This document shows, piece after piece, positions 3,756 through 24,600 of a stretch of 28,736 nt of DNA; position 1 is the stretch's first letter; every line of letters begins with the position of its first letter. The translations under genes were made by a program, and so were the position numbers. The stretch covers positions 1 to 28,736 of IMG/VR virus record IMGVR_UViG_3300030329_004121. The stretch is one strand, 5' to 3'. The notes under the pieces were generated by a model. The model was not told the DNA's origin. It ran no database searches and saw only the letters and a list, made by a program, of their open reading frames with translations. The DNA is from a virus.

Positions 3756-6700
3756 TTACTTAAATTTAAAATTTTTAAAACCTTTTGATTTTCTATTACT
3801 CTTTTGTTTTTTAATACTTTCTTTTACTTTTTCAACTTCTTCATTTTTAACACCAACATCCCATTGACTCCAACCTAAAGCCATAGCTAGCCTTTGCCAC
3901 CATTCGTTTTCTGAGTTAGCAGCTTGTCGCAGGTTAGTTACTTTACGATGCAACCTAGCTAGTGGTATATTAGTAGTAGCTTCAACAGCGTTACCTACAG
4001 CGCCCCATATAGGATTATCAATATCAAAAGTTTCCATTTCTTTTATTACTTTTTTATTGTAATCATAAGTTTTTTCAGCGCTACTAAGTTTTCTAGCTTT
4101 AATACCTATTGGTGGTGATAACTGTAACATCTCCATCATTAAAGCATTGTCTTCTTTACCCCAACCTTTACCTTGCTGTTCAGCCCATTTTTTAGCTGTA
4201 TTTTTAATAGTAGATACTATAGCACCACCAACGCCCATACCTCTTAATATTGTATCTATACTACCACTTATTATTCTATCTCTTTTCTTTGAGAAAAACT
4301 CTTCATCTTGCTCATCATCATCAAACATCATAGCGAACAAAGCTGTTTGTAAACCATAAAATATAACGTTTTGTACAGCTCCGTAATATATTATTTTAGA
4401 TACATTAGACATATCACTGTTTACTTGATTTTTATAAGGTGGTGTTTTTCTTCTATTAATTAAATCTAAACCAGCCTTTTTAATTAATCTAACGTATTGT
4501 GATGGTGTATTTTGAAACGCTAGTATCATACGGCCAAGCGGTGAAGCTTGCTCTTGTGATATTTTATCTGGTCTAGCTGACTGCTGAGTTGACTCAGCTA
4601 CTTCTTGAAAATCATTAAAAGCTTTAGTTTCAGCTTCTTTTTGTGATAAACCTTGTTTTAAATAAGTATTTAATCTATTACGATACATAGCAGAACCACC
4701 TAATGATATTGCAAAACTATCAGCAATTTGTGTAGGTAAAAAACCTATTTGTAATAAATGTCTAATAGCAGCTCTTACAGGTTCTTTTGATTTAGCTACA
4801 GCAGTAGATAACTCGGCGGCGTTAACATCAAACGCTGTTCCAGCTCTTCTTTGTTTCAACATGTCTGAGTTAAATATCATACTAAAGTCTTGCCAAAACT
4901 GTTTTTGATTAGCAAAAGCTTTAGCAGCTTTAAATATGTTGTTATCACCAAAGTTTATAAAGTTAACTGTAGATATAGTTTGTAGCACAGCAGATCTAGC
5001 GTTAAAAAACATAGTAGCACCAATAGATCCGTTTAAATAATCTAAAAATTTATTTACAGTTCTGTTTTTACCTACAGTTCTATTTGTACCGTTTTTAGTT
5101 CTATATATAATATCTTCTAAAGCTTCTCTAAAATCTCTACCATAAGCAGCCTCAATTTTATTTAAATTTTCTTTACTAAATATTATATCAGAGTTTTCTA
5201 TAAATTCACCAAAAAATTGCTTTCTACCAACTCTACCAGTAGCATCAGCTAAATCAGTTCTTATATCACCTGTTTCCCAGTGCTCACTTGGCTCTACGTA
5301 ACCTTGTTCTTGTTTAGATATTATACCTATAGACTCTGCAAAAGCTTGTAGCTCTATATCACTAGTAACTAAATCAGTTAATTCTTTTATATCTGTTTCA
5401 GACATACCAGGAATATCAAAACCTGCTTTATTCCACAAATAAACTCTAACAGCATCAGAATAGTAATAATCACCATCTGGAGTTTTCTTTGTTAATTTTT
5501 TTCTCATTTCAGGAAACTGTCTTATCAAGCTTTTGTAATCGTTTGCTATTGCTTGTCTAGCCTCGTTTAATTCAGTATAAGCTCTATTTAGTGGTTTTAA
5601 TAAAGCTTTTTCAAAAAAGTCCCTATGTTTATTACCTAACCTACCTGATCCCATAAAGTTATAAAGTAATCCAGCAAAGTCTTCGTGTGATGGTGGTATA
5701 AAAAATCTAAACTTACCTTTGCCTTCACCACGTTTTCTTGCCTTAGCTTGTGAATATCTTTTTTCTGATTTTATTCCAGTTACGTCTTGAAGTATATCAT
5801 TAAAGCCTTTGTCTAATGTTTGGCTAAACTTAACTCTTGCTTGTTGAACTTTTGATTTAACATCAAATTGATCTAACATGTTCTTAACAGCTTGTACATT
5901 TTGTAGAGCATCATCAGCAAAATAAAAATCATTATAACCTTCACCAACTTTATTAGCTATCCAAAGTGCTTTAGCTTCACTAGTACTATTACCTAAACCA
6001 GTTATATTTTTTAAAGGTATATTTAAACCGTTAGCTTTTAAAAAATCAAATATAGCTTTTTGAGCTCTAGGTGGTCTAGCTGTTAATACAAACATGTTTT
6101 CAGGACCAAATTTACCCTGTAGCTTCATAGCCTTATTAAACAAAGGTGCTAACTTACCTTTTACAACTTTATTAAAATCTGAAAAGTCAAACGTGTAACC
6201 TTGATCTAATAAGCTTTCATATGTACTAGCATATTGCTCAGCATTTAAAGTTCCTGTTTCTCCATCAGGCTTTGTGTATTTAACTAAAGACTCTGTAGTA
6301 GCTAAAGTATCGTCAAAATCTAAAACAGTAATACCTTTTGATGGATTTTTAGCAGATCTAGAAAATCTAATACTTTTATCTAAAACTAAACTACCTTGTA
6401 AGTTTTCTTTAGTTGGCACTACAAGATTAAGCAACATGTCTTCTTTTCTTGTTAAGCTAACAGCTTTTTTAGGTGTTTTTAAAGAGTTTTTAAGCATTTT
6501 GTTTTGAAACTGTAAAGTAAAGCGAACATACCTATCGTTTTGCATTTTGCCTTTTCTCATTACTTTTACGTTACTAGTTCTATCTGCCATAGTATCTTTA
6601 GCTCCAGAATTAAAAACCCTTACGTGTGTTTCTATTCTAGCCATGTTTAATATGTAAGGCACGTTAGGTCCAAGAACAGAATTTGGAACAAAAGAATACA

Positions 6701-9700
6701 AACCTTTACCAAATATTTCTATTGCTTTTACAGCGCCAGCAAATTTATTTAAATAATGGTCTATTAACGGTTGAGCATTAGGTGAAGGAAAAAAGCTTTT
6801 GTTAAATATTTTACCAGTAACACCTTCTGCAACCATTTCGTTATATATAGACTCAACCATAGCGTGTCCTGTAGGATTTTCAGTATCCATTAAAGGCTCG
6901 TTAGTTCCGTTTTTATTATTGTAAGCGGTCACTTTTCCATTATAAACTTCAACAAGATTAACTATATCGTCATGAACTAATTCTATTATTTGGTCAAAAG
7001 GCAAGCTTTTATCCATAGAGCTTTTTGCTAGTTCAAGAACTCTTGTTTTTAAATTGTAAGCAGAAGCAGTAACACTACCCATAGGTACGCTTTCATTTAA
7101 TTTAACTTCTATTCTTAATGCTTCGCCTAACACCTCTAAGTTAATATCAGCAAGACCACCTTTCTCTGTAGCGTATTTAACACCTAATTTTAAATATTTA
7201 GTTGGTAAGTTGTATGATTCTAACAAGTCTATTATTACCTGCTCTAACGCATGTCCTTTTGATTGAAATTTACCATATTTATTAAAATAAATACCAACAC
7301 CATTATCACCATAATAATCGTTAACTTGTTTTTTAACAGTCACACTAAATTTTACAGCATCAAAACTTACTTGCTCGTTTTGTATATTTTTTGCAGTATC
7401 AGATATTTGTCTAAGTTTAGCTTCTAAAACTGCTTCTATATTACCAGAATTTGATTCTATATACTTGTCTATAGCTGTATCAGCTTTTCTTTTAGCTATA
7501 CGTCTTAATAAAGCGGTTCTTCTTTCTCTTAAAACACCTGGTTTACCTTGTAAAAAGTATTTTATAAAGTCTGGTTTACTAGCCTTGTTACTAAAAGTAT
7601 CTTTTCTATAGTTACTAACCACACCAGTAACAGGATCTATATTTTTATAATCTTTTCTACCAGTTTTTTCTTGTTTAAAAAATGGTTTATAAGCCTTTCT
7701 TATAGTAGCAATACCTAATCCGTCTACTATTTCCTGAAATTCATTCCGTATAAATTTTTCGTATTCAACACTTGGTTTTGGATCACCTTCTTTTTTACCA
7801 GTCTTAGGGTTTATTTGTTTTTCAATTTTACCTACAGCATTATCAAGTTTTTTACGTATGTCACTCAATATAAGTTTTTCCATACGTACCTCTAAATCAG
7901 AAGGGTTTTGTTCTATTAAAGCTTCTACTTCAGCGATTATTTCAGCGTCAACCAAACCATCTTCAAGTTCAATATCAAAATTATTTAACTTTCTAAGTTT
8001 AACATCTTTTTGATCTACTTGAGTTGTTTCAGTTGGTGTTGTATCTTCTATTTCTCTAGCCTCTTTAGTGTCTATAGCGGTTGTTTTCTTTTCTTTTTCG
8101 GCTTTAATAGCTAATTCTTTAGCCGCAACCATTTTACCAAAATTAGCGTTAGCAAATATAAATTCACCAAAACCTTCTGGGCCTACAATTGATCCATCTG
8201 CTCGTTTAGCATTAGGATCAAAATTAACTAATCTATCTTTAACGGCTTTTATATTTTCACGAGCCATATCAGATGATGTAGATCTGCTTTTAATATACGC
8301 TTCTATAACAGGCGCTAAGTTACCTTTTGTATCTAAAATTCTTTCAACACCAGCTTGCTTAGCTAATCTAGGATCATTAAGAATAGCGTAATAGTCTTCT
8401 TGCGTTTTTACATTATCTGGTATAAGTTTGTTTATAGCTTCTAGAGGTGTTGATCTTGACTGTCTTTGACCCTCAGCACCTGGGTCTACTTTAGCAAACT
8501 CTTTAGCTCTTTCTGTAACTTTACCTGTTTTTTTGATTGTTAAAGAATAATCTTTTACAAAATTATAGGCTTGTCTTGCGTTACTAAATTCTTTTCTGTA
8601 TAAAAAACTTTGTTCTCCAAAATAACCTGCAGAGCTTAACTGCCTTAGTATTTCTTCAAAAGAATTTTTTATTTTACCAAAAACACCTTCGTTAAATTTA
8701 ACTCCACCATCTATTATTTCGTCGGAAAAAGCAGTGTATAACTCTTCAGTTGTAAATACTTCGTCACCAGTTATACTATAAGAGTTTTCTAATCTGTTTA
8801 ATACAGCTTCTTTATCTCTTTTACTAAGTAAGTTTAAAAAATTTTCATTAAGTCTTTTTTTAGCCTCAGAGTCTAACTTGCTAAAAGATCTACCAATAAT
8901 ACCATGTAACAACTCGTGAGAACCAACTCCTATGGCTCCAGCTTCTCTTGCGGTTTGCATGTTAACAAAATATGTTTTACCATCATCAGATATGTGGCCA
9001 TCAACATTCAGAGCTTCTTTGTATTTTTTTGATCCTTTTCTACCAAACAAAGCCGCATATTGCTCTTTAGTTTCAAACAACTCTTGTTTTAGACCAACTT
9101 TTTCTCCTTCTTCTTTTGCTACTTCAAGTCCAGTTTGTAATAACTGTTCTTTAGCGGATTCATTAATTAACTCTACTTGTTCTGCTATTCTTTTATTTTC
9201 GTTATTTAAACTTCTAAGAATATAACCAGCATCTTTACTTGTTATTTGATTATCTTGTAAGCGTTTTTGTAGATTTTGTATATCAGAGTCATTTTGATCT
9301 TTTTGATTCATAAGATCTATTAAAGATGATTGTTGATCTTCGTTTAAAATATCAGCAATTTTTCTTTTATTTAAAACAAAATCTTTAATTTTTTGTTCTA
9401 TTTTTTTTATTTGTAAACCAAGTATTTTTTGATCTTTTTTGTTTGTAGTTTTATTTTTTGCAAAACTAAATTCTGCATAATCATTAACTAAATTATTAAA
9501 CTCTTTAACACTAGCTTTGTCACTTCTCAAAGCTCTATTTACAATACTACCTCCAGCTGACATTGTAGTACCACCAATAAAACCATTTAAATAAGCTTCT
9601 ATACCTTTTTCACTAAAAACACCATCTATAAAAGCTTTTGCTAAATCTAAACCGTCTTTACCATCTGCTTTAGCTATATTAACTTCTTCAACGCCACTTT

Positions 9701-10694
9701 GTCCTATTTCAGTTAAACCTTCTTTGTTACCAGTTATTAATAATTTAGCAGCAGTGTTTTTAGCTCCTTTGCCTAATATATAATTACTTATACCTCTAAA
9801 ACCTACATATTCAAAAGAGCTAGCAACCAATCCTAGCGTAGCTGGAACTGCAAGCTCTTCTTGTCTATTATCAAAAAGTTTTTTTATAGCATCAGGATCG
9901 TCTTTACCATAAATATTTTCAGCTTTTCTTCGATTATAATCTGTAATCATTGGTGCTGTTATTTGAAAAGGTATTGATGTGCCGTATGTAAGCATTGCTG
10001 GTACTACAGTTTCAACTGTTGAAGCGCCCGCATTAAATATACCACCTATAAGATCTGAAGCATCACCTTGTTTTATACCTTTAACTATGCCTTCACCGGT
10101 GTCTTTTCTAAAGTATTTATCAGATATTTCTAATTTTTTTATAGTTTCTACTATTTTTTCATTTGCTTTTTGCTCTGCTAAACCAGCCGAACTAGATTTA
10201 TAACCTTCTAAATATTTTATCCTATCAGCATTTGTTTTAAAACCTGTTGGATCACCTGATGGTTCTTCGTAAGTAGCATTAGGATCTAAAGTTTTTAAAT
10301 ACTTTAACTCTTCTTCGTCGTATAAATCATCATAACGAACACTTTTATAAGCTTGTCTTATAGCGTTTGGTATGTCGTACATAAAAGTATTCATTCCTCT
10401 ACGTAGCATTTCAGGACCCACATTACTCAAAACCTCTGCTGTTTCTTTTTGCTCTTCAGGATCAGTAATTAAATCTTTCATTATTTTAACACCGCTATCA
10501 AATAACAAGCCTAACTTTACATTAATATTAGGCGCGGCTTCAAAAGCAGTTTGTCTAGCTGTATCTTCAATATCTATTTCTTTCAACCCTTTTTGCTTCA
10601 TAGTATCTAAGTATGAATCAAAATCCATATTATACTTAGTTGCAGCATTTTGCAAGTCTTCATTAGAGTATCTTGTGCCGTTTAATTCAAACAT
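3756..10694 (-). CDS. Giant polyvalent internal virion protein with peptidase-, nuclease- and HAD-like domains (2312 aa)
   Basis: The N-terminus (1-130) is polar. About 213-395 is partly hydrophobic, and 400-560 is Lys/Glu/Gln-rich and probably coiled coil. A zinc-peptidase motif HELLH lies at 593-597, with EELYTAF about 60 residues later as possible third ligand. A PD-(D/E)XK-like site is suggested by E1151, D1183 in GGLADI and E1196-V-K1198. A HAD-like domain begins with DFDDT at 1459-1463, followed by TARPP and a FADDALQN motif. From about 1664 (FFIPPSHEDF) a long helical region follows, with a hydrophobic stretch at about 2097-2120. Multi-enzyme proteins of this type are known as phage polyvalent proteins and are thought to be injected with DNA. 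It follows two internal-core-like genes. Motif assignments are by eye; no activity is proven. Confidence 0.85.
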   Translation of the reverse strand: MFELNGTRYSNEDLQNAATKYNMDFDSYLDTMKQKGLKEIDIEDTARQTAFEAAPNINVKLGLLFDSGVKIMKDLITDPEEQKETAEVLSNVGPEMLRRGMNTFMYDIPNAIRQAYKSVRYDDLYDEEELKYLKTLDPNATYEEPSGDPTGFKTNADRIKYLEGYKSSSAGLAEQKANEKIVETIKKLEISDKYFRKDTGEGIVKGIKQGDASDLIGGIFNAGASTVETVVPAMLTYGTSIPFQITAPMITDYNRRKAENIYGKDDPDAIKKLFDNRQEELAVPATLGLVASSFEYVGFRGISNYILGKGAKNTAAKLLITGNKEGLTEIGQSGVEEVNIAKADGKDGLDLAKAFIDGVFSEKGIEAYLNGFIGGTTMSAGGSIVNRALRSDKASVKEFNNLVNDYAEFSFAKNKTTNKKDQKILGLQIKKIEQKIKDFVLNKRKIADILNEDQQSSLIDLMNQKDQNDSDIQNLQKRLQDNQITSKDAGYILRSLNNENKRIAEQVELINESAKEQLLQTGLEVAKEEGEKVGLKQELFETKEQYAALFGRKGSKKYKEALNVDGHISDDGKTYFVNMQTAREAGAIGVGSHELLHGIIGRSFSKLDSEAKKRLNENFLNLLSKRDKEAVLNRLENSYSITGDEVFTTEELYTAFSDEIIDGGVKFNEGVFGKIKNSFEEILRQLSSAGYFGEQSFLYRKEFSNARQAYNFVKDYSLTIKKTGKVTERAKEFAKVDPGAEGQRQSRSTPLEAINKLIPDNVKTQEDYYAILNDPRLAKQAGVERILDTKGNLAPVIEAYIKSRSTSSDMARENIKAVKDRLVNFDPNAKRADGSIVGPEGFGEFIFANANFGKMVAAKELAIKAEKEKKTTAIDTKEAREIEDTTPTETTQVDQKDVKLRKLNNFDIELEDGLVDAEIIAEVEALIEQNPSDLEVRMEKLILSDIRKKLDNAVGKIEKQINPKTGKKEGDPKPSVEYEKFIRNEFQEIVDGLGIATIRKAYKPFFKQEKTGRKDYKNIDPVTGVVSNYRKDTFSNKASKPDFIKYFLQGKPGVLRERRTALLRRIAKRKADTAIDKYIESNSGNIEAVLEAKLRQISDTAKNIQNEQVSFDAVKFSVTVKKQVNDYYGDNGVGIYFNKYGKFQSKGHALEQVIIDLLESYNLPTKYLKLGVKYATEKGGLADINLEVLGEALRIEVKLNESVPMGSVTASAYNLKTRVLELAKSSMDKSLPFDQIIELVHDDIVNLVEVYNGKVTAYNNKNGTNEPLMDTENPTGHAMVESIYNEMVAEGVTGKIFNKSFFPSPNAQPLIDHYLNKFAGAVKAIEIFGKGLYSFVPNSVLGPNVPYILNMARIETHVRVFNSGAKDTMADRTSNVKVMRKGKMQNDRYVRFTLQFQNKMLKNSLKTPKKAVSLTRKEDMLLNLVVPTKENLQGSLVLDKSIRFSRSAKNPSKGITVLDFDDTLATTESLVKYTKPDGETGTLNAEQYASTYESLLDQGYTFDFSDFNKVVKGKLAPLFNKAMKLQGKFGPENMFVLTARPPRAQKAIFDFLKANGLNIPLKNITGLGNSTSEAKALWIANKVGEGYNDFYFADDALQNVQAVKNMLDQFDVKSKVQQARVKFSQTLDKGFNDILQDVTGIKSEKRYSQAKARKRGEGKGKFRFFIPPSHEDFAGLLYNFMGSGRLGNKHRDFFEKALLKPLNRAYTELNEARQAIANDYKSLIRQFPEMRKKLTKKTPDGDYYYSDAVRVYLWNKAGFDIPGMSETDIKELTDLVTSDIELQAFAESIGIISKQEQGYVEPSEHWETGDIRTDLADATGRVGRKQFFGEFIENSDIIFSKENLNKIEAAYGRDFREALEDIIYRTKNGTNRTVGKNRTVNKFLDYLNGSIGATMFFNARSAVLQTISTVNFINFGDNNIFKAAKAFANQKQFWQDFSMIFNSDMLKQRRAGTAFDVNAAELSTAVAKSKEPVRAAIRHLLQIGFLPTQIADSFAISLGGSAMYRNRLNTYLKQGLSQKEAETKAFNDFQEVAESTQQSARPDKISQEQASPLGRMILAFQNTPSQYVRLIKKAGLDLINRRKTPPYKNQVNSDMSNVSKIIYYGAVQNVIFYGLQTALFAMMFDDDEQDEEFFSKKRDRIISGSIDTILRGMGVGGAIVSTIKNTAKKWAEQQGKGWGKEDNALMMEMLQLSPPIGIKARKLSSAEKTYDYNKKVIKEMETFDIDNPIWGAVGNAVEATTNIPLARLHRKVTNLRQAANSENEWWQRLAMALGWSQWDVGVKNEEVEKVKESIKKQKSNRKSKGFKNFKFK

Positions 10695-10695
10695 A

Positions 10696-12009
10696 TTAAT
10701 TATTTGGGTTTAAAGGATCTTCACCAGAAGTTTCTGTTAAAAAATTAGACCAACCATCAGCTACTGCTAATTCGTTAAATGACATAGCCGAACTCTTATC
10801 AATTTCTTTAGTATTTACATTGTAAACATAATATTTACCTTTTTGATATTTAAATTTCATACCTGTTGGTGATGCAAAAGTTTCACCTTCACTAGGCGTT
10901 TGTAGTTTATTTATAAAAGGTACAAATGAATTATTAAAATCTTGAGCGTTAAAAGTTTGTCCGCCTATAATAAAATTAGCTGCTCTAACACTTTGTTGTT
11001 GTTGTTGTTGTGTATTAAAAACATTTCTACCTTTATCATGATAGTAGTTAGCGACATCAGTATGATACTCTGCTATCATATTAGCTAGTAAATTACTATT
11101 TTCTTTTTTATCCATCCAACTAATATCTGAGCCTTTTGGTATTTCTTGATAAAACTTTTTATCTAAATAACCATTATCCCACATAGCTTCAAATGACTGA
11201 TTACCAGATAATATTGGATTTCCATCTTTATCTTTTCCTAAAACATATTGATTATCACCAGTTAAATCTGTTTTAGCCATTACTTGTATGCCTCTGGTAC
11301 CAGATTGTTGTAGTTCGTAAACAAAAGCATTTTTTATATCGTCTCTAAAAAAATTTTTACCTTGCTCTCCTATTCTCGTGGCATTTGAAAAAGCTTGTAA
11401 AGCGTTAGCTTCGGTTTTATATTGTCTAGTGTTCCACTTACCTACAACATCTTTATACTTATCATATTTACCTTTACTAGTAAAACCAATATCACCATTA
11501 CTTTCTATACTAAAATTACTATTATTAGTATACATGTAAGTATATTTATCGTCATCTTTTAAATCTACAATTTGACCTTGATCATAAGCCGTGTTATATT
11601 GTATTTTATCGCTCATATAAGCATCTAGTTGTGCGTTTAAGTTTTGAAAAGAAAATTTAATTTCTTCCATTTGCTCTCTACAACCTTGATCTTTTGTTCT
11701 AGCAAAGCAGTCAGCGGCTTTAGCATATTCATCTTTTTTTGATCTAACAAAAGTACCAACCTGTTCTTTGTTAAAACCGTCTTCTAGCTTGTAGATATTA
11801 TCTATACCACCTAAATCATCTAAATAAGCATCTCTAATAGAGTTTCTTTTTTCTTGCTCTTGTATACCAGATATTACAGCGCCAGTAAGCCCTTGAGCAA
11901 ACGCAGTTCCACCAGCTGAGCTTAGCATAGCTTTTGATCTAGCTATATCTGCTTCACCTCTTATTAAGGCTGTATCAGGACCATATGATATTGATTGTTT
12001 TTTTGCCAT
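10696..12009 (-). CDS. Putative internal virion protein (437 aa)
   Basis: A soluble, Gln/Asn/Lys-rich protein with a short Ala/Gly-rich amphipathic segment at about 28-48 (SSAGGTAFAQGLTGAVISG) and no signal peptide. Residues about 85-130 are charged and helical and contain two Cys. A run of six Gln, encoded by six CAA codons, lies in the C-terminal third. No catalytic motif is visible. It sits between the Ala/Gln-rich 343-aa gene and the 2312-aa gene, with its stop one base before the latter's ATG. This three-gene order resembles the internal core cluster of T7-like podoviruses (gp14, gp15, gp16). The middle position would correspond to gp15, but only by position, not by visible similarity. 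ATG 12009 follows the leader AATAAATTAAT. Confidence 0.75.
   Translation of the reverse strand: MAKKQSISYGPDTALIRGEADIARSKAMLSSAGGTAFAQGLTGAVISGIQEQEKRNSIRDAYLDDLGGIDNIYKLEDGFNKEQVGTFVRSKKDEYAKAADCFARTKDQGCREQMEEIKFSFQNLNAQLDAYMSDKIQYNTAYDQGQIVDLKDDDKYTYMYTNNSNFSIESNGDIGFTSKGKYDKYKDVVGKWNTRQYKTEANALQAFSNATRIGEQGKNFFRDDIKNAFVYELQQSGTRGIQVMAKTDLTGDNQYVLGKDKDGNPILSGNQSFEAMWDNGYLDKKFYQEIPKGSDISWMDKKENSNLLANMIAEYHTDVANYYHDKGRNVFNTQQQQQQSVRAANFIIGGQTFNAQDFNNSFVPFINKLQTPSEGETFASPTGMKFKYQKGKYYVYNVNTKEIDKSSAMSFNELAVADGWSNFLTETSGEDPLNPNN
10993..11010 (-). repeat. CAA trinucleotide run encoding six glutamines
   Basis: Six consecutive CAA codons on the minus strand, read as TTG on the plus strand, encode Q6 between Asn-Thr and Ser-Val in the 437-aa protein. 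A pure codon repeat of this kind is prone to slippage, so length variation between related phages would be expected. It probably marks a flexible linker. Confidence 0.85.
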
Positions 12010-12024
12010 ATTAATTTATTGTTT

Positions 12025-13056
12025 TTACGCCGCTCCTATTGCAGCCATAGCAGCTGTTCCAGCTAAACTACCTATACCACCATATAAAGCTGCTTGAGCT
12101 CGTGCTCTAGCCATATTTGCTTGTGCTAATCTTTGTTGTGACATACCTAGTTGTGTCGCTGTTTGTCTATATTCTAAACCTCTAGCTCTTTCAGCACCAG
12201 CTAGTCTCATAGCTTCAGCTTGCGCTTCACCAGTTCTTTCTAATTGTTGTAATCTACCAGCTTCTTGAGCTCTTAACATGTTAATTCTAGATTCTTGAGC
12301 GCCAATACTAGCCCCAGCTTGTCTTGCAGCTATTTGACCTTGATTTGCCAACGCTTGTGCTAAACCAGCAATACCAGAGCCGCCTGCGGCAGCAGAAAAA
12401 CCTTGCATGATATTTGCTTGCTGCTGTCTAAACATATCTCGTTCAAACTCTGCTTGCTGTCTGTTTACTGTTAAATCTTCGTATACGTTTTCCATGCCAG
12501 TATATTGGTTTTCAACATCAGCATATAAATTACTAGTATCTAAATCTTTGTATTGTTGTAGTATTTTATCATACTCATCTTGAGCGGCTATTTGCTCGTT
12601 TTTTCTTCTAGTGCTACCAATTAAACCTTGCAGTATACCACCCACACCCTGCGCTGCACCCATCATTGCTTGTGGAGACATGTTTGCTGCATAGTCAATT
12701 CCGCTACCACCTGTACTAGACGCGCTAGGTATTTCCATTTTACTTGGCATCGCTTGCATGCTTCCTGCGCCTGCCGCACCTCCTATTTGTTGCATAGGTA
12801 AACTTACGCCAGCATAAGGTTGCACCTGTCCAAAAGTTTGAGTAGATGTCTGTGGTGATACCGCTTGTTGTGGAACAACTTGTGACGTGGGTGATTGTAG
12901 GTTAAACATATCAAAACCAAAAAAGTTGCTAGCACCTTGATCTTCGTAAAATCTAAAATTACTTGGGGTTTCTGAGCTTCCATATGGATTATATGTAGCT
13001 TTATCAAAACCAAAACCATAAGCGGGGAAATTTGGATTATTTATTCCGTTTGCCAT
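12025..13056 (-). CDS. Ala/Gln/Gly-rich internal core protein, T7 gp14-like by composition and position (343 aa)
   Basis: The N-terminal 150 residues are low-complexity and rich in Pro, Gln, Ser and Phe/Tyr. From about 150 the chain becomes helical: LQQYKDLDTSNLYADVENQY, then DLTVNRQQAEFERDMFRQQQ, then an Ala/Gly/Gln-rich amphipathic stretch, ending in a small hydrophobic Gly/Ala tail (GGIGSLAGTAAMAAIGAA). This is typical of podovirus internal core proteins that leave the capsid and insert into the host envelope to form a DNA conduit. The DTSNxYAD...DLTVN block is familiar to me from marine phage structural proteins. It lies upstream of the 437-aa and 2312-aa genes, in the order expected for an internal core set. 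ATG 13056 is preceded by an A-rich leader. Confidence 0.8.
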   Translation of the reverse strand: MANGINNPNFPAYGFGFDKATYNPYGSSETPSNFRFYEDQGASNFFGFDMFNLQSPTSQVVPQQAVSPQTSTQTFGQVQPYAGVSLPMQQIGGAAGAGSMQAMPSKMEIPSASSTGGSGIDYAANMSPQAMMGAAQGVGGILQGLIGSTRRKNEQIAAQDEYDKILQQYKDLDTSNLYADVENQYTGMENVYEDLTVNRQQAEFERDMFRQQQANIMQGFSAAAGGSGIAGLAQALANQGQIAARQAGASIGAQESRINMLRAQEAGRLQQLERTGEAQAEAMRLAGAERARGLEYRQTATQLGMSQQRLAQANMARARAQAALYGGIGSLAGTAAMAAIGAA

Positions 13057-15257: not shown

Positions 15258-15647
15258 TTATTTACTACTTTCTGTAACTTCTGAGCCTAGTGAAAACATC
15301 TCTATTTTAGTATCAGAAGTGTTTTCTAAGTCAACTTTTGCATAATAACCTATTAAGCTAGATGAGTTAACTTGTTTATCTTTTTCAAACATTATATAAT
15401 CACTAGCTAGTGGCGCTGGAATGTTAGCGTCATGTACAACATCTATTTCTGGTTGGTCAAGTGGTAAACCTGTTAATAAATCTATATCTCTTATATCACT
15501 AACAACACCAAATTTAGTTACACCAGAAGTAACCGATTGATATATAGAACTAGTAGGTAACTGACTAGGTGATGTATAATAAACTAAATCTCCAATTTGT
15601 AAGCTAGAGTTTAATGATGTATTAAATATTAACGTTGATATAGGCAT
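15258..15647 (-). CDS. Small structural hypothetical protein (129 aa)
   Basis: A 129-residue acidic, beta-rich protein without signal peptide or membrane segment. Visible features are an N-terminal NTSLNSSLQIGDLVYYT segment, a central GVVSDIRDIDLLTG turn and a C-terminal YYAKVDLEN...MFSLGSEVTESSK. The last block is, from memory, repeated in small proteins encoded next to giant tail proteins in marine phages, where the role is unknown. It is wedged between the 3223-aa tail gene (11 bp gap) and the 712-aa structural gene (12 bp gap), so a small tail or connector component is a fair guess. Its ATG at 15647 follows AATAATAAGTT. The gene call is solid, the function uncertain. Confidence 0.75.
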   Translation of the reverse strand: MPISTLIFNTSLNSSLQIGDLVYYTSPSQLPTSSIYQSVTSGVTKFGVVSDIRDIDLLTGLPLDQPEIDVVHDANIPAPLASDYIMFEKDKQVNSSSLIGYYAKVDLENTSDTKIEMFSLGSEVTESSK

Positions 15648-15658
15648 AACTTATTATT

Positions 15659-18600
15659 TTATTGACATTGTTGTATTGCTGATCCAGCTGGTAAACCGTA
15701 AATATATAAATTTCCGTTGCTACAACATTGACCAGCAGCCGATGTTCCAGTTGCGTTTTGGCAAGGCAAATTAAAAACTCTAATTTCATAATTATTAGAA
15801 CTAGCAGTATTAATATAAGGAGAATTAGTATTAGCATTAACACCACCATCCCAAACAATTGCTCTATATTTGTTCATAGGAAAACCTTGTATTGTACCAT
15901 TTGATGGCTGGAAAGAAACGTGAGGGCCTGGAACAACAGTATATGGCATAGGGAAAAGTATGCTTTGACCTGTTGGTTGAATACCTGCTAAAGTAGATGT
16001 AACGTATCCTAATGAGCCACCAATTGTTCCAGCGTTGTTTTGACCTGTAAATACAGAATTAGGATTTATTTCACCTTGATTTTGAAATGCACCCATCCAA
16101 CTATGCGCACCTTGATTAATAATATTTCCTGCTGAATCTGTAATTTCAATAAAATCAGTAGCAGGATCAGCTAAACCTCCATTATCAATTCCATAGTTAG
16201 CTAGGTATTGTCCACTAGCATCTTGCGTGTCCCAACCCCATTTGTTACTGGTCGGATGTTTAACTTGTAGACGGAAAACTTTTTGCCCATAAGGAAGACT
16301 ATTTTCACCTCCATATCCTTCAAATTTACACGCTAAAGCATCAAATCTACTATAATAAAGATTACCTGATACTGGAGTATAACCTACTTGCATGTTTTGG
16401 TGATATACATTATTAGGATCTATTGACGCCGCTGGATTATAATTAACAGCAAGAGGATGTGTGCAACCTTGTACAAGACCAAATTGACAAGATCCATCAT
16501 CAACATTAGCTGATGCATTAAAATTATTTGCTTCAGCCGGAACAGATAATCCAAAACTAGCTAAACTACCGTATAATTGGAACCAAGATGAACTAGTGTT
16601 AGGACCACCATCATTTATAAGAGCGCCCCAACTTGGAAGAGAATTATAACCAGCGCCACCACCTAAGCCATAAGTACAACCAGGTACTGAAACAGGTCCA
16701 AAAGTACATGAACCATCATCACATGTTGCTGTAGAATCATAGTTGTTAGCCGAAGCATCAGTACAACCATAAGCACAAGCCACACAAACACCTAATCCAA
16801 ACGCATCAACATATCCAGGTAAACAATTTCCACTACAATTAGCATTAGTCGCAGGGTATGTACAAGAACCATCGTCAATAGAAGCTGTAGGATCAAAATT
16901 ACAAGCTATAGGATCTGTACAACCAGATACTCCAGGTGTTGGCGTAGGACCTGGACCTGGACCTGGGCCTGGACCTGGACCTGGTCCCGTACTTGGTATA
17001 GAAAATAAAGTTGGACTACCAAATTGTGAAAAAACGTTTGTAGTTAAAGTTGCAGTGCTACAACGAACTCTTGGAAGTGCGATATAGCTATTTCCAGCTT
17101 GTAAAGCAGTTGATCCAGAACTAGCGCTCTGAAGCGTAGTGCTATTTACCATTGGTAAACCTGTAAAACTATTAAGCTGTGTAATTGGTAGTCCAGTTGG
17201 ATTTCCTGTTCCATCGTCTAACCAAATAGTAATTCTATACTCTACAGAATCAGCTATTGAAACGCTAGGCGTAACACCTGTTAAATCAAACGACGCTACT
17301 ATTCCTGAAACAGTAACAGAATTAATAGTAGGTGCGTTACAATAAATACAACCACTAGTACAAGTCGCGTTTGCACCATCATAGTTTAAAACATGAGTGC
17401 TAGAATCACCACAGAAATTACACGATCCATCGTCTTGAGTAGCTAAAGTATCATAGTTACAAGCACTTGCGTTAGTACAGCCAAGTATTACACCAGTTCC
17501 ATATACACAACTACCATTATCTACAGCTGTACCTTGCTCATACTCTTCTACAATAGGTGTTGTTGTGTTGTCAACAGGAGGATTAGATACAACAGGATAC
17601 CAAACCCAACCAAAAGGGCTTCCAGCAGGAAGTGCTCCTCCAAAACTATAATTATCAGCAGAAGGATCCATACAGCCAGGATATATACATGAAAAGTCAG
17701 AAACAGTAGCTAAAGGATCAAATCCTTGAGCCATAGGATCCATACAACCTACTACAGGATAAGTACAGCTTCCATCATCAACAGTAGCATTAGGATCGTA
17801 ATTACCTGCTGGTCCAGAATATCCAGAAGGTCTACCTGGAAAATTAGGATCACTACCATCATCTGTGCAACCAGGAGTTGCAACTGCAGAAATATAAGTG
17901 CAAACTACAGAGCCTTGATGCGTAGCGTTTATATCATAATTTAAAGCTTGACCAGTGTAACCAGCTGGTCTTGCTACGCCGTTTGCTGTAAAGTTAGGAT
18001 CTGTACCATCATCTAAACAACCATAGTAAATACACTGAGAAGGATCAGAAGTATTAGCATTTTGATTATAACCATTGCCGTTAGGAAGAGTTGCATACGG
18101 ATCCATACAACCTAAAATTATAGCTACACAAGATCCATCATCTACAGTTGCGTTAGGATCATAATTGAAAGCGGGTTGTCCATCACCATCAATGTCATTA
18201 ACTACACCAGCACCGTTTAAAGCTAAACCATTGTCTGTACAACCTGGCACGGGAGCTCCAGATATAACAGATGCTACTCTAGCTATACCTTGAAAAGAAA
18301 AATCAGCGTTATCAAAACCTCCAATTATATTTTCAGTAGGTTCTGTATCAATTACACTACCAACCGCACCTCTTATATAGTTAAACCATTTACCTTCTTT
18401 TTTAATAAACTCAGGTAAACCACCTTGTTCTAAATTAGTGTTAATGTTTTTAACATACCAACCTTTTACGTCATTTAAATTATAATACTCATCATTATAA
18501 ATAGTATCTCTTACAAGTCCAGTAGCAATATCTGTTGTATCATAACTTCTTAGCTCATCTATTTTAGATTGAGTTCCTTCATAATTTAAAGTGTGAAATG

Positions 18601-21600
18601 TTTTTATAACTCCAGGTGAATCATTAATTATTACGCTAAGACTTGTTGGTGTAAAAACACCATAAAAAGTATTTCTATTTATTTCTAAACCTGTATTACT
18701 ATCTATTTGCTCAACATGATGTTTCCATAAATTACCATCTAAATAAGTGTAATACTCATTAGCACAACTATTAGCATTTTCAGGAATAAAAGATTTAAAG
18801 CTAGTCCAACCTTTTACGTTTTCTTTAAACGAAACTGTTCTAGCAGTACCAATATTTAATATAGAAGTGTCATTTGTTTCTGACAAGGTTATATTATATT
18901 GATCTTTTCTATCATCGTAACTACCTATAAGCTTAGTTGATAATTTTAAATTATCTCTAAACCAATCTTTCATACCAGCTTCTGATATAGCTGTTAAACC
19001 ATCCATAGATAATCTAATAACAGCACCTCTAACTCTATCTGTAAAGTAAGCTCTATAAGACTCAGCTGCAAAAGACTCTGGATTTTCTGATATTCCAAAT
19101 TCACCAGAATAAGGTGTAGCAGTACCTAAAACTCTATTAGTAGCAGTAACGTTTGAATCACCATCAGCATTAAATAAAGCATCTTTATTAGCTAATATCT
19201 TTAAAACTCTATCTTCACAAAGTGTAACTAAATCACCGCTTTGTCCCCAACCAGAGTATAATTTTTGTATACTACCGTAAATAGGATTTATATCTTTAGT
19301 AATTTTTTCAGCTTGTATAAATTGATTTAAATTATTTACACCGCTATTAGAGTTGTAAATACCAGAATATATTAATCCATGTTTTCTACGTTCAGATTTA
19401 TATTCAGTATCTAAAGTAGCAGAAGCTTTAACACCATCTCTCATGTAAGTTAAATTAAAAGCATCTCTAACTCTATTAGATTCAACACCGTTACCAAATG
19501 AATAACAATTATACCAACCAGAAGTTACTTTTTGTTTTAATAAATTTGTTATTAATTCAAAAGTAGTTGTAAAATTACCAGTTGTACCAGCAATACCAAT
19601 AGCACTAATTTCTATTTCTATAATATCTCCATTTGGTTTTTGTACTACTATTTTATCTCCAGGAATTATAGTACCACTACCAAAAGAACCAGAGCCTAAA
19701 TCTGCATTTACTATTATATCTCTACCAGTACCATTATGAGTGTTATTAACAACACTAATACCTTCACTAAAAGGTATTACCCCATTGCCTAAAGTACCTA
19801 CATCAGGATCTTGACTTCTTATTTCTACAATACTACCAATTGGTAAAACAGTAGATATAGTATCTACGTCTAGCGATGTTGGTATATTATCTGTTATTTC
19901 AAAATAAATATCTAAATCTTTTTCTTCTTTTGGCTCTGTTTCAAATATAGCAGGAAAACGAGGAAACTCAACTTCTTTTGTATTGCTTGAACTATCTACT
20001 ATTTCAAGATCAAAACCTACAGCATCAACACCATTGTTAGCATTGTTAAATCCTTCACCATTATTCCAGTAATTAATATTTTTAGCAGAATTACGACTTA
20101 AACCATTCATACCAAATTGTTTGATAACTATAACATCACCTGGAACTAAAGTAGGGAAAGTACACGAAGGACATGATCCATTGTAGACTTTAAATTTTAT
20201 AGTATTTGTAGCTTCATCTATTTCAGAAACAATAGCACCGTCATCAGTATTAGGGCTACTAGCAGTCCAACTAGAAGTAAAAATAGGTGTAGCTCCAACA
20301 GGAAAACCTACACTAGTATCAGACGTGTCCCACACCATACCTGGATATATTTTTCTTATTCCATAAGCAGGGTTTAAATCAGGGTTAGATAAACCAGCAA
20401 CAGTTATTTCATTATTAGCCGTGACCGTGCTTACAACAAGTGGTATTTGTAAACCATTATTAATATATCCATAAGTATATGGATTAAATTTTATAGCCTG
20501 CGTGCTATCTTGATGATCAGCAAATCCTAATCTATAGTTTTTACTAAAATTATCTGGTCTATAAAAAGTTGACTGTACATATCCATTATTATTAATAATA
20601 TTACCAATAGCTGCAGAAAAGCCTCTAGCATTTGCGTATTGTTGTTCAAGATCAAAGTCAGCTTCATGTCTTATCAAATTAAATTCTTGCTGGCTATTAG
20701 TTTGAAGATATTGATTAGTTGGATCTTGTTTCCATCTAAAAGTAGTAGCGTTTGTTAATAAATCAGCAAAAACACCAGCTTCAACATCATAGTGATTATT
20801 ATTTGATAATTCATAAAAATCAGTATCAACATTAAGACTAAGATTGTCAGCTTGCCAAGGCCAATATATCCATTGACCACCAGAATCTTTTCTTTCTTCA
20901 GGTTGTATACCACCAAAACCTAAATCCATTATAGCGCTAGTAGTAGCAGTAGTATCAATACCATAACCAGTATAGTTAGTATCGGTATAATAACCACCCC
21001 AATCAGTTGTAAATCTACCCTCGCTAGTTTCTCCATCAACAAACCAAACGTCTTCAAACTCTAAATAATCAGATCCACCATGCAAATCCATTGTCTCATA
21101 AGCTTTTCTTTGATTTATAGCATGTTGGTCAAAAACAACAACACCTGTTCCATCTCCACTTACTTGTGCTTTATGTAAATTTAAACCTCTAAAAAAAGCG
21201 CAATGAGCTAACCAGTTACTTCCCGAGTTACCATAATTATTACCTGTATTAGTTGTAGCTTGTATTATGTCTTGCCATAAAGGGTTGTTATTGTTAGCAT
21301 TAGTAGCTATAAAGTTACCACTTGCACCACCAGGAAGTGTACCAGTAGCATTGCTCCAAGCAAGATCATGTCTGTCTTTTCTAAATGAATATATTTTTTG
21401 AGAAATACTAGGCGTGTAGTTGTAAGTTGTTAGTGAAGTACTACTAGGGTTGTTTACTATATACTTAGTAAATACATCTTCTTCAAATATTTTAACAAAA
21501 AACCTTCCATCAAACTTAGCAGCATTATCTTTTTTATACTCCCAAAATACAGCTTTATTACCAAACTGTATTTGAGTTACATTGTTAGGATCATTAGGAG

Positions 21601-24600
21601 AATCAGTAAATTTTAAAATATCATCTGCAAACGGTTTTTCTAAAGTTATATTCCAATTTACTGCATTTGAAGAATTTACACCAAGATCATCACTTAAATC
21701 TATTTTAGATATTCTCATTGGTATAGATGACTCAGTGTTAGTACTATTTACAATTTGAAACCAGTATTCAGAGTCATCAGTTGAATTATGTATATTTTTT
21801 ATAGAACTATTACTATGTATGTGAATACCAGTTCCTGTTCCATCCCACCAGCCAATTGAAAAGAATTTACTACCAACGGTAGGTAGTTCACTAGCGCCGT
21901 CAGGGAAAACATTAACAGCAGCAGCGTGTGTAACACTAGATATAATAGTTTTGTTAATTTTTATAAAATCTGGAGCTTCGTTTTCTATAGCTATAACTTT
22001 AAACCTAGCAGCATCTTCAATCAACTCGTTTGAATCAACACCTTTTTTAAGTATTAAAAACGAATCTATGTCAACTTTATTTCTATCTGAAGAAGCAAAA
22101 GACACCCAAATATTACCATCCTCAGCGTTGTAATATCGATCCATAGCCATATTATAATACTCACCAGAAGTTTCTTTAATATAAAACTTAAAATACTTCA
22201 TGTCTAGCGGTATACTAGCGTTGTTTAATCTTACTTGTAACCTATTGTTTTTAATAGCTAAGCTTTTATCTATTTTAAAAGTACCAGAGGTATTTGATAT
22301 TACAGGTGTTTCTCTACCATACTCATCTGTAAAAACAACACCAAGTTGATATTCTCGTAAAGATTTTATTGATTTAACAGTAGAAGACTCTTCGTTTGCA
22401 AGTTCAACTTGAAAAACAGGGTTGTATTGAGAATTACCATTAGTTAAGTTATAATTTTGCTCGTAATTACCATAAACAATTCTACTACCAGTAACTTCTT
22501 GTGCTAGAGCTTTTTTAGGTACATTGTCAAATGGTCGTAACAATTGATTAGAAGGTAAAATTGCTTTTATATTTTCCTTATCAATTCTATACTCATTTAA
22601 AGTCCAGTTTGTTACTAAATTACCAAAATCGTTAACAGTAGGATCTGAATCAGGTTTTATTGTTTCTACAACATATACTTCTGGTGAAGAATCTTCTTTA
22701 TATAAAATGTCAATAGCAACAACATCTAAAGGCATATCTTCAGTTATAAAATCTCTTAAAAACAAATGATTCACATTGTTTGTCATAGCTAGATTATAAC
22801 CTTTTCTAGGATGATAATCAAACGAACCAGGAAGAAAAGCTACACTAGTAAAAGGTGCAAAAGCAGAATATTCACCATCTTCAAATTTATATCTATAAGA
22901 AAATCTAGGTAATTTAAACTCAAATAATTTTTCAGACTCATCAAATAAATCTATAGCAAAATTTAAAGTACCACTTATAGCTAATTGTGGTGGTCTAGAA
23001 ATACTATTAATTTTTATAGCAACTTTAGCGCCATAAGGAGCTGCAGAAGATGTAAAGCTATTAGCATCTACAGTATTACCTAAGCTATTCGTATAATCCC
23101 AACCAATAATAACTCCTTTTATAGTATAGTCATTAATAGGTATTTGTGGTGGTATTCCATTTGCATCAAACTCTTTCAATACAACTTTTGATCCTACTTT
23201 CCAGTTATCTAAGTTAAAATTAGAGTTTCCATCTAAGTCTGTTTGTATTTGAACATACATGATGTTATTACCTTCTTCTGTAGTAAAAGTAGAAAAATCA
23301 TAAGGATGATTTGTGTTACCTGTACCAGTAGTAGCAAAACTTTGTACTTGTTGCCATAAGCTAGAGTCAGCAATATTTGTTTCGTCAGAGATAGTAACTA
23401 TACCAGAGTAGTTTTGATCAGGATTTCTAAAAGACCTTAAATCCATTGTTAAAGATGATTTAGGGCTTTTCTTAATAACCGTTATATGTTCTTCTTGTAT
23501 AGGATTATAGTTTGATAAAGATAAACCAGTGGCACTATTAACAACAGCTGTATGAGTATCACCAGCAGGATCAGTTCCTTCTATACTACGTGGTATGTTT
23601 ATTTTTTTTGGCTCAGTAAAATTGTCAGTCCAAAATAACATGTCATCAACAATATTTATTCCTGTTATTAACCTACTAGCGTCAAAGTTTAAAACACGTC
23701 GTGGATTTTCAAAACAAATAGTATCAACATCTTTTAATTCAACAGTTGCGTTTAAATATACAGCATCAGGAGCAAATTGATTTTGAACAAAAAAAGTTAA
23801 AGGAAGTGATCTAAAGTTGTTAAAACCACTTGGTGTTACCGGCGCGTAAGTATTACAGTCTACTATATCGTAAGTAGTATTGTACTGTATAGGTGGTCCA
23901 AGACTAAATCCATATGCTGGATCAATAATAGAACCAGGATCAATACAAGAGTTGGGAGGGAACAAACCGCCAGCACCTACACTATTATCAATTGTAATTG
24001 AAGGTGTAGCACCAGAAACAGGTAATATTGTACCTGGTTGGTAGAATATTTCATATATTTCATTTAGCCATTGTTGAGAATTAGCATAAACTTCTATAGA
24101 GCTACCAGGTACATTTTGATTTACTTGTGAAGTAACTTCAATATATAAAGGTTCAAAATTATGTACTTGACTAGGATAATGAGTAGTATCAGGTATTAGC
24201 TGAGTTGTATCAACAACTTGAGGACCAGTATCAACTTCTATTACATAATAATCTACAAAAGAAGTAGGACCACTACCATATGTAGCGCTGAAAAAAGCAT
24301 AAGTAGGATCTAAAGTTACATTAGGAGTTATACTTACTATTGTAGAGTTTGTAAATATATTAAAACCAACAGGACTACCACCAGAAGTAGATTGAGCAAA
24401 ATCAATTTGTGCGCCAGCTACAAAACTACCAGGAAGACTAACTTGCTGTCCAGCTGGTGTTTGCATTGGAATTAGTAATTGTAAGTTTTGTGTATTAGAA
24501 GCTAAATCTGTAGGTTGAGGTATATTAAGTAGATCAGCTGAGTGAGGAGGACATAAAGTAGCATTACCAGCATGAAAACCAGGGCCTGTTATTGCATTGT

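Follow-up and report, generated by a model that had tools for sequence, protein, structure and literature searches.

The 28,736-nucleotide window analyzed here, which belongs to a virus record of 42.7 kb, encodes a giant modular protein (P0001) that we read, with fair rather than strong confidence, as a phage polyvalent protein carried inside the virion and ejected together with the DNA, in which a zincin would act in cis, a HAD phosphatase would act on nucleic-acid ends, and a nuclease would be exchangeable. We infer the packaging, ejection, self-cleavage, timing, and every substrate. The class of protein is known, and this representative is real, conserved, and widespread. Judged against the open-access literature and the main text of PMC5512222, three features appear to be new: a constant fusion of the HAD domain to the C-terminal core, a two-way slot for either a nuclease or an EHxxP domain, and a kinase nested within the HAD domain.

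The protein is encoded by a single open reading frame on the minus strand (positions 3756 to 10694), which starts with ATG and runs uninterrupted for 2,312 amino acids; the claims of the first-pass annotation, which had been made from the same DNA, gave no strand. A direct query of IMG/VR finds 67 relatives of the giant protein, and a search with a profile of the last 670 amino acids finds at least 587 relative contigs. The whole protein had no useful match in Pfam or PHROGs and no tblastn match among the 50,697 phage records of INPHARED, the HAD domain alone likewise found no match in phages by tblastn, and PDB sequence searches returned none with either the whole protein or a HAD-plus-core profile. 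These numbers describe a very common marine phage lineage with no cultured member detected by tblastn in those phage records. Relatives L070 to L086 sit in metagenome-assembled genomes (MAGs) labelled Maricaulis, Aliivibrio, Woesearchaeota, and others; these contigs are probably misbinned phage DNA. Protein length among relatives ranges from approximately 2,190 to 3,370 amino acids because the N-terminal part varies. In the window, this variable region (residues 1 to 539; positions 9078 to 10694, minus strand) can be aligned mostly among close relatives alone, has hydrophobic stretches at residues 215 to 235 and 282 to 302 by hydropathy, and had no match of note in Pfam.

The variable region is followed by a zincin-like metallopeptidase domain (residues 540 to 760; positions 8415 to 9077, minus strand). 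The HELLH motif reported by the first-pass annotation is present at residues 593 to 597, and H593, E594, and H597 are identical in 65 of 65 aligned proteins, as is E651, a third zinc ligand that the annotation had lacked; identity of the domain among relatives is often only 15 to 40%. Among 72 long proteins chosen by the C-terminal core alone, 69 contain HExxH, whereas the other three have HDxxH or a similar sequence. Such a change is seen in L137 and L141 (and in L098), whose zincin is possibly inactive or changed. When the protein was shuffled 2,000 times, HExxH arose in 0.4% of shuffles and HELxH in none (0/2,000); conservation among relatives is a stronger test than such counts. An AF2 model of residues 540 to 1660, built from 29 sequences and of moderate confidence (pLDDT 63.5), places the motif residues on two helices. 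Judged by its sequence, with HExxH and a downstream glutamate, the domain is probably a zincin metallopeptidase.

Farther along the chain, a PD-(D/E)XK nuclease-like core spans residues 1134 to 1250 (positions 6945 to 7295, minus strand). E1151, D1183, E1196, and K1198, the residues that had been proposed as its active site, are the sole invariant columns of an 18-protein alignment (A6) that extends to approximately 15% identity. The domain was found in 17 relatives by jackhmmer and in 2 to 4 more by hhalign; a scan with the nuclease region alone confirmed no relative. In the AF2 model of residues 540 to 1660, these residues occupy the helix and strands where they would be expected, and VIA-align gave moderate matches to archaeal Hjc resolvases (Z of 5.8 to 6.3 over 103 to 111 aligned residues at 3.7 to 4.1 Å). 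Against PDB sequences, the nuclease profile matched five entries, four of which are named Holliday-junction resolvases (best E value, 0.0089); the fifth, hypothetical protein ST1444, was taken as belonging to the Hjc-type family. These profile matches are weak singly, yet the profile and fold methods agree. Together, the E...D...ExK residues in the expected helix and strand order and the restriction-endonuclease-like fold of the model point to a PD-(D/E)XK nuclease. Since both profile and fold resemble those of Holliday-junction resolvases, the domain need not be a general destroyer of DNA; of the earlier suggestion that the protein cuts host or rival DNA, the nuclease fold is what stands.

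This nuclease occupies a slot just before the HAD domain. The slot holds the PD-(D/E)XK domain in 15 of the 72 long proteins, an EHxxP domain in 53, and both in none (hypergeometric P of approximately 3 × 10−12, a statistic that ignores kinship). The EHxxP domain (L018:12395-12949 and 27 other relatives) has an invariant EHxxP motif and a frequent RYFN motif. We considered it as an HNH nuclease and rejected this for now: the first motif is alike, and the conserved downstream N/H was not found. On the core tree, slot labels are nearly scattered (12 changes for PD-(D/E)XK, against a shuffled mean of 14.8), and the window protein, which carries the nuclease, is sister to L005, which carries EHxxP, at 75% identity. 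Assembly chimeras could add some of these changes, hardly all of them. The PD-(D/E)XK nuclease is probably one of two exchangeable effectors.

Such frequent exchange, as in arms races, is what would be expected of a takeover (or anti-defense) weapon whose zincin cuts host proteins and whose nuclease cuts host or rival DNA, both as effectors in trans after ejection. Polyvalent proteins have been proposed as conflict effectors (PMC5512222), and relative L032 has an ART-PolyVal-like insert at the HAD cap site (E value of 0.0018, a weak match below the cut-off). We nevertheless consider a takeover weapon unlikely: its nuclease resembles junction resolvases, and its zincin is nearly constant, unlike an effector. 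Since the zincin is nearly constant while the neighboring effector is swapped, self-processing fits better than a target-specific weapon, and the zincin is probably best explained as a self-processing enzyme, a role also proposed for polyvalent MPTases (PMC5512222). It is this constancy that suggests self-cleavage. The first-pass idea that the protein could cut host proteins finds no support here, and the zincin is almost always kept in both the aligned and the core-selected proteins.

The most conserved part of the giant protein is a HAD phosphatase-like domain (residues 1445 to 1630; positions 5805 to 6362, minus strand) with motifs I to IV intact. DFDDT (residues 1459 to 1463), TARPP (at 1538), and FADDALQN (at 1592) are present as had been noted, and D1459, D1461, T1463, T1538, K1575, D1594, and D1595 are conserved throughout the homologs; K1575, motif III, is an addition to the first-pass annotation. 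DFDxT arose in 2.6% of 2,000 protein shuffles. In the AF2 model of residues 540 to 1660, the HAD residues lie on a Rossmannoid domain, which VIA-align matched to HAD folds with Z of 8.1 to 8.6. Among these, T4 polynucleotide kinase/phosphatase (Z of 8.2 over 118 residues at 3.0 Å) is tied with other HAD folds, and by profile motif I alone aligns with the T4 PseT phosphatase. DUF2608 gave a weak match to the HAD domain in 29 of 53 cases. The motifs and the predicted fold are those of a HAD phosphatase. The structural comparison that the first-pass annotation had called for matched HAD and Hjc-like PD-(D/E)XK folds, so that the refuting outcome of no fitting fold did not arise for these two domains; the fold-search matches listed fell outside the zincin region, for which sequence and secondary structure were examined. 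The same model had no significant match in the Foldseek "pdb" database, probably because it is multi-domain and of moderate confidence. Across all three domains, the conservation of each active-site set upholds the view that three enzyme-like sites are combined in one chain.

The first set of relatives had been collected with peptide patterns, one of which lay within the HAD domain, so the presence of HAD was retested by a core-only pattern scan. The domain was present in 78 of 78 core-selected relatives, a few of whose contigs were also part of the first set. Distant MAG relatives with 37 to 47% core identity include four without a detectable HAD domain (L077, L078, L084, and L085) and one with a partial HAD only (L081); the HAD-core fusion is therefore a trait of a subfamily and not of the whole core family.

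Seven relatives (L037, L056, L073, L083, L100, L101, and L105) carry a P-loop kinase of approximately 200 amino acids directly after HAD motif I, at the cap site. This nested kinase matches Pfam AAA_33/Zeta_toxin with E values down to 2.5 × 10−16, and its profile aligns with the T4 PseT kinase (probability of 94.7, with no other P-loop kinases as controls). The window protein has no match to Walker A and thus does not combine kinase and HAD phosphatase as PNKP does. Inteins were ruled out as an explanation for the HAD inserts, which are either the P-loop kinase or the ART-like domain. Separately, L054 and L132 have inserts of approximately 150 to 400 amino acids just after HAD, that of L054 with weak MORN-like repeat sequence. 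Because the HAD domain is constant and, in some relatives, accompanied by a kinase, a nucleic-acid end-processing phosphatase is the best explanation, and we regard it as probably acting on nucleic-acid ends. Of the first-pass claim that the protein cleaves phosphate esters, the HAD fold is what stands, whereas the constant chassis and nested kinase point to nucleic-acid ends and not to unspecific cleavage.

The conserved C-terminal core (residues 1640 to 2312; positions 3759 to 5777, minus strand) is all-helical with hydrophobic helices in an AF2 model of moderate confidence (pLDDT 70). A Foldseek search of BFVD with this core returned four close relatives and then phage proteins at 10 to 17% identity (E values to 7.5 × 10−11), many of them annotated as polyvalent, ART-PolyVal, or large-polyvalent-associated (LPD) proteins, in agreement with the resemblance to polyvalent proteins that had been recognized at first pass. 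By profile, the core matches Tenacibaculum phage Gundel_1 gp074 (probability of 95.5; E value, 1.6 × 10−8). The LPD38 Pfam model did not match the giant protein, and the control was also silent.

A large all-helical core with hydrophobic helices would also suit a mainly structural internal-core or ejection-channel protein of the T7 gp15/gp16 type, with enzyme domains that are accessory or decaying. Among structural neighbors, the one closest to the core is the T7 DNA ejectosome tunnel protein (Z of 5.1 over 70 residues), and several of the distant relatives named above retain the core without a detectable HAD domain. The T7 match is weak and lacks profile support, however, and we rejected homology of the core to T7 gp15. 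Moreover, active-site residues that are invariant over wide divergence are under selection, which counts against decaying enzyme domains. A mainly structural role is, in our estimation, quite unlikely.

The genes around the giant gene bear on whether its product enters the virion. Its start lies one base past the stop of a 437-aa gene (positions 10696 to 12009, minus strand), directly upstream, which takes the place of a small cargo- or ejection-type protein (by synteny with phi38:1 gp100 and elemo QLF85283, on position only). Beyond this are a 343-aa gene (positions 12025 to 13056, minus strand) related to the phi38:1 gp99 "structural protein" (blastp, 6 × 10−4; phmmer, 6 × 10−7) and a gene for a 3,223-aa muzzle protein of a crassvirus-type tail (positions 15659 to 25330, minus strand; PF25729 E value, 4.6 × 10−9; phrog_14478 E value, 6 × 10−127), which is homologous to its counterparts in phi38:1, elemo, and MW202828. 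A ring-like protein precedes the muzzle, giving the order ring-muzzle-cargo. The portal is 54% identical to that of MW202828, 43% to those of Flavobacterium elemoviruses, 37% to that of Cellulophaga phi38:1, and 28 to 30% to those of Pachyviridae phages. The phage falls close to elemoviruses, Pervagoviridae, and Pachyviridae and has tail genes of the crassvirus type; we take it as a marine crassvirus-like podovirus, its portal nearest to those of Flavobacteriaceae phages.

The muzzle protein has a C-terminal extension of approximately 900 amino acids with repeated GCTDPxAxNYDxxATxDDGSC motifs, and tail protein UOF82505 (phrog_18548) is apparently split by it (window positions 15258 to 25330): the first half resembles muzzle residues 2164 to 2274, and the second half resembles a 129-aa open reading frame at 15258 to 15647. 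The phage also encodes its own GroES (85 amino acids) and GroEL (521 amino acids) in the same record, outside the window (L069:12795-14601), as do Flavobacterium elemoviruses.

In cultured relatives, a giant gene likewise ends the block or stands beside the terminase. At this position, phi18:3 gp123 carries a structural annotation "based on experimental MS/MS proteomics analysis"; it has the position in common with the giant protein, with no detectable sequence likeness. Flavobacterium phage elemoA QLF85284, which shares the zincin, is annotated as structural, and Gundel gp074, which shares part of the core, is annotated as a "structural protein." With muzzle, ring, and portal genes nearby, the gene lies in a late, virion-associated neighborhood. 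Given this position and the structural annotations in relatives, packaging in the virion and ejection of the giant protein are likely, and the "injected-type" label of the first-pass annotation agrees with the gene position to the extent that it fits a virion protein. An unpackaged enzyme made in the infected cell, for example for genome end processing at replication or packaging, could account for an Hjc-like nuclease and a PNKP-like HAD/kinase, which form a plausible DNA-processing set. We find this highly improbable for a gene in a late structural block after the muzzle, with related or positional proteins of cultured phages annotated as virion proteins and with an all-helical core that fits ejection.

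In the polyvalent-protein scheme that we favor, the helical core would serve packaging and passage; the zincin, acting in cis, would cut the chain and so release its enzymatic pieces, either within the particle or in the host; the HAD domain would trim phosphates from nucleic-acid ends in a PNKP-like manner; and the PD-(D/E)XK domain would be an exchangeable nuclease effector, possibly branch-specific. The constant parts probably serve infection and the exchanged parts conflict. A more speculative idea, to which we give little credence, is that HAD, nested kinase, and swappable nuclease form a virion-delivered repair kit that would heal DNA or tRNA cut by host defense nucleases before any expression of phage genes; by analogy, T4 PseT acts likewise, but later in infection. 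If true, this placement of a kinase, nested in the HAD cap site of an ejection protein, would represent a new architecture. Comparison alone distinguishes the constant parts (HAD, core, and mostly zincin) from the exchangeable slot and so sets probable infection machinery apart from probable conflict effectors, and the action of polyvalent proteins on entry becomes a question at the scale of domains.

Phage polyvalent proteins (PMC5512222) unite several enzyme domains of unrelated kinds in a single late-gene product, commonly include a zincin MPTase, and exchange domains mosaically, as is the case here. The giant protein carries at least two unrelated enzymatic domains in one polypeptide (zincin, PD-(D/E)XK, and HAD by their residues, two of them also by modeled fold), and its helical core has the same predicted fold as that of polyvalent proteins. 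It differs in that a HAD phosphatase is always joined to the core (78/78 core-selected relatives); the main text of Iyer et al. 2017 (PMC5512222) uses none of the terms "phosphatase," "HAD superfamily," or "polynucleotide kinase." Gundel_1 gp074 and elemoA QLF85284 share the same type of neighborhood and are otherwise diverged: the former has HEFGH and no DxDx(T/V) HAD motif I, and the latter has only an unlike RDKV match for this motif. The kinase of T4 PseT (Pnkp) resembles the nested kinase of the relatives, whereas the window protein is without one. Archaeal and phage Hjc resolvases resemble the PD-(D/E)XK domain in fold and profile; Hjc is a small free-standing enzyme.

In crAss001, gp45 to gp50 are virion cargo for which ejection is expected, and the ring-muzzle-cargo order and expected delivery through the tail are as here (PMC10172136). 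The large crAss001 cargo proteins are RNAP-associated, whereas the RNAP catalytic motif D-x-DGD was found in none of the 67 relatives. The N4 virion RNA polymerase of Schitoviridae is the nearest working analogue. Where N4 has a polymerase, the giant protein has HAD and nuclease domains; the layout that they have in common is that of an ejected giant in which an HExxH domain is followed by a large helical C-terminal domain, of approximately 110 kDa in N4 (PMC12633501).
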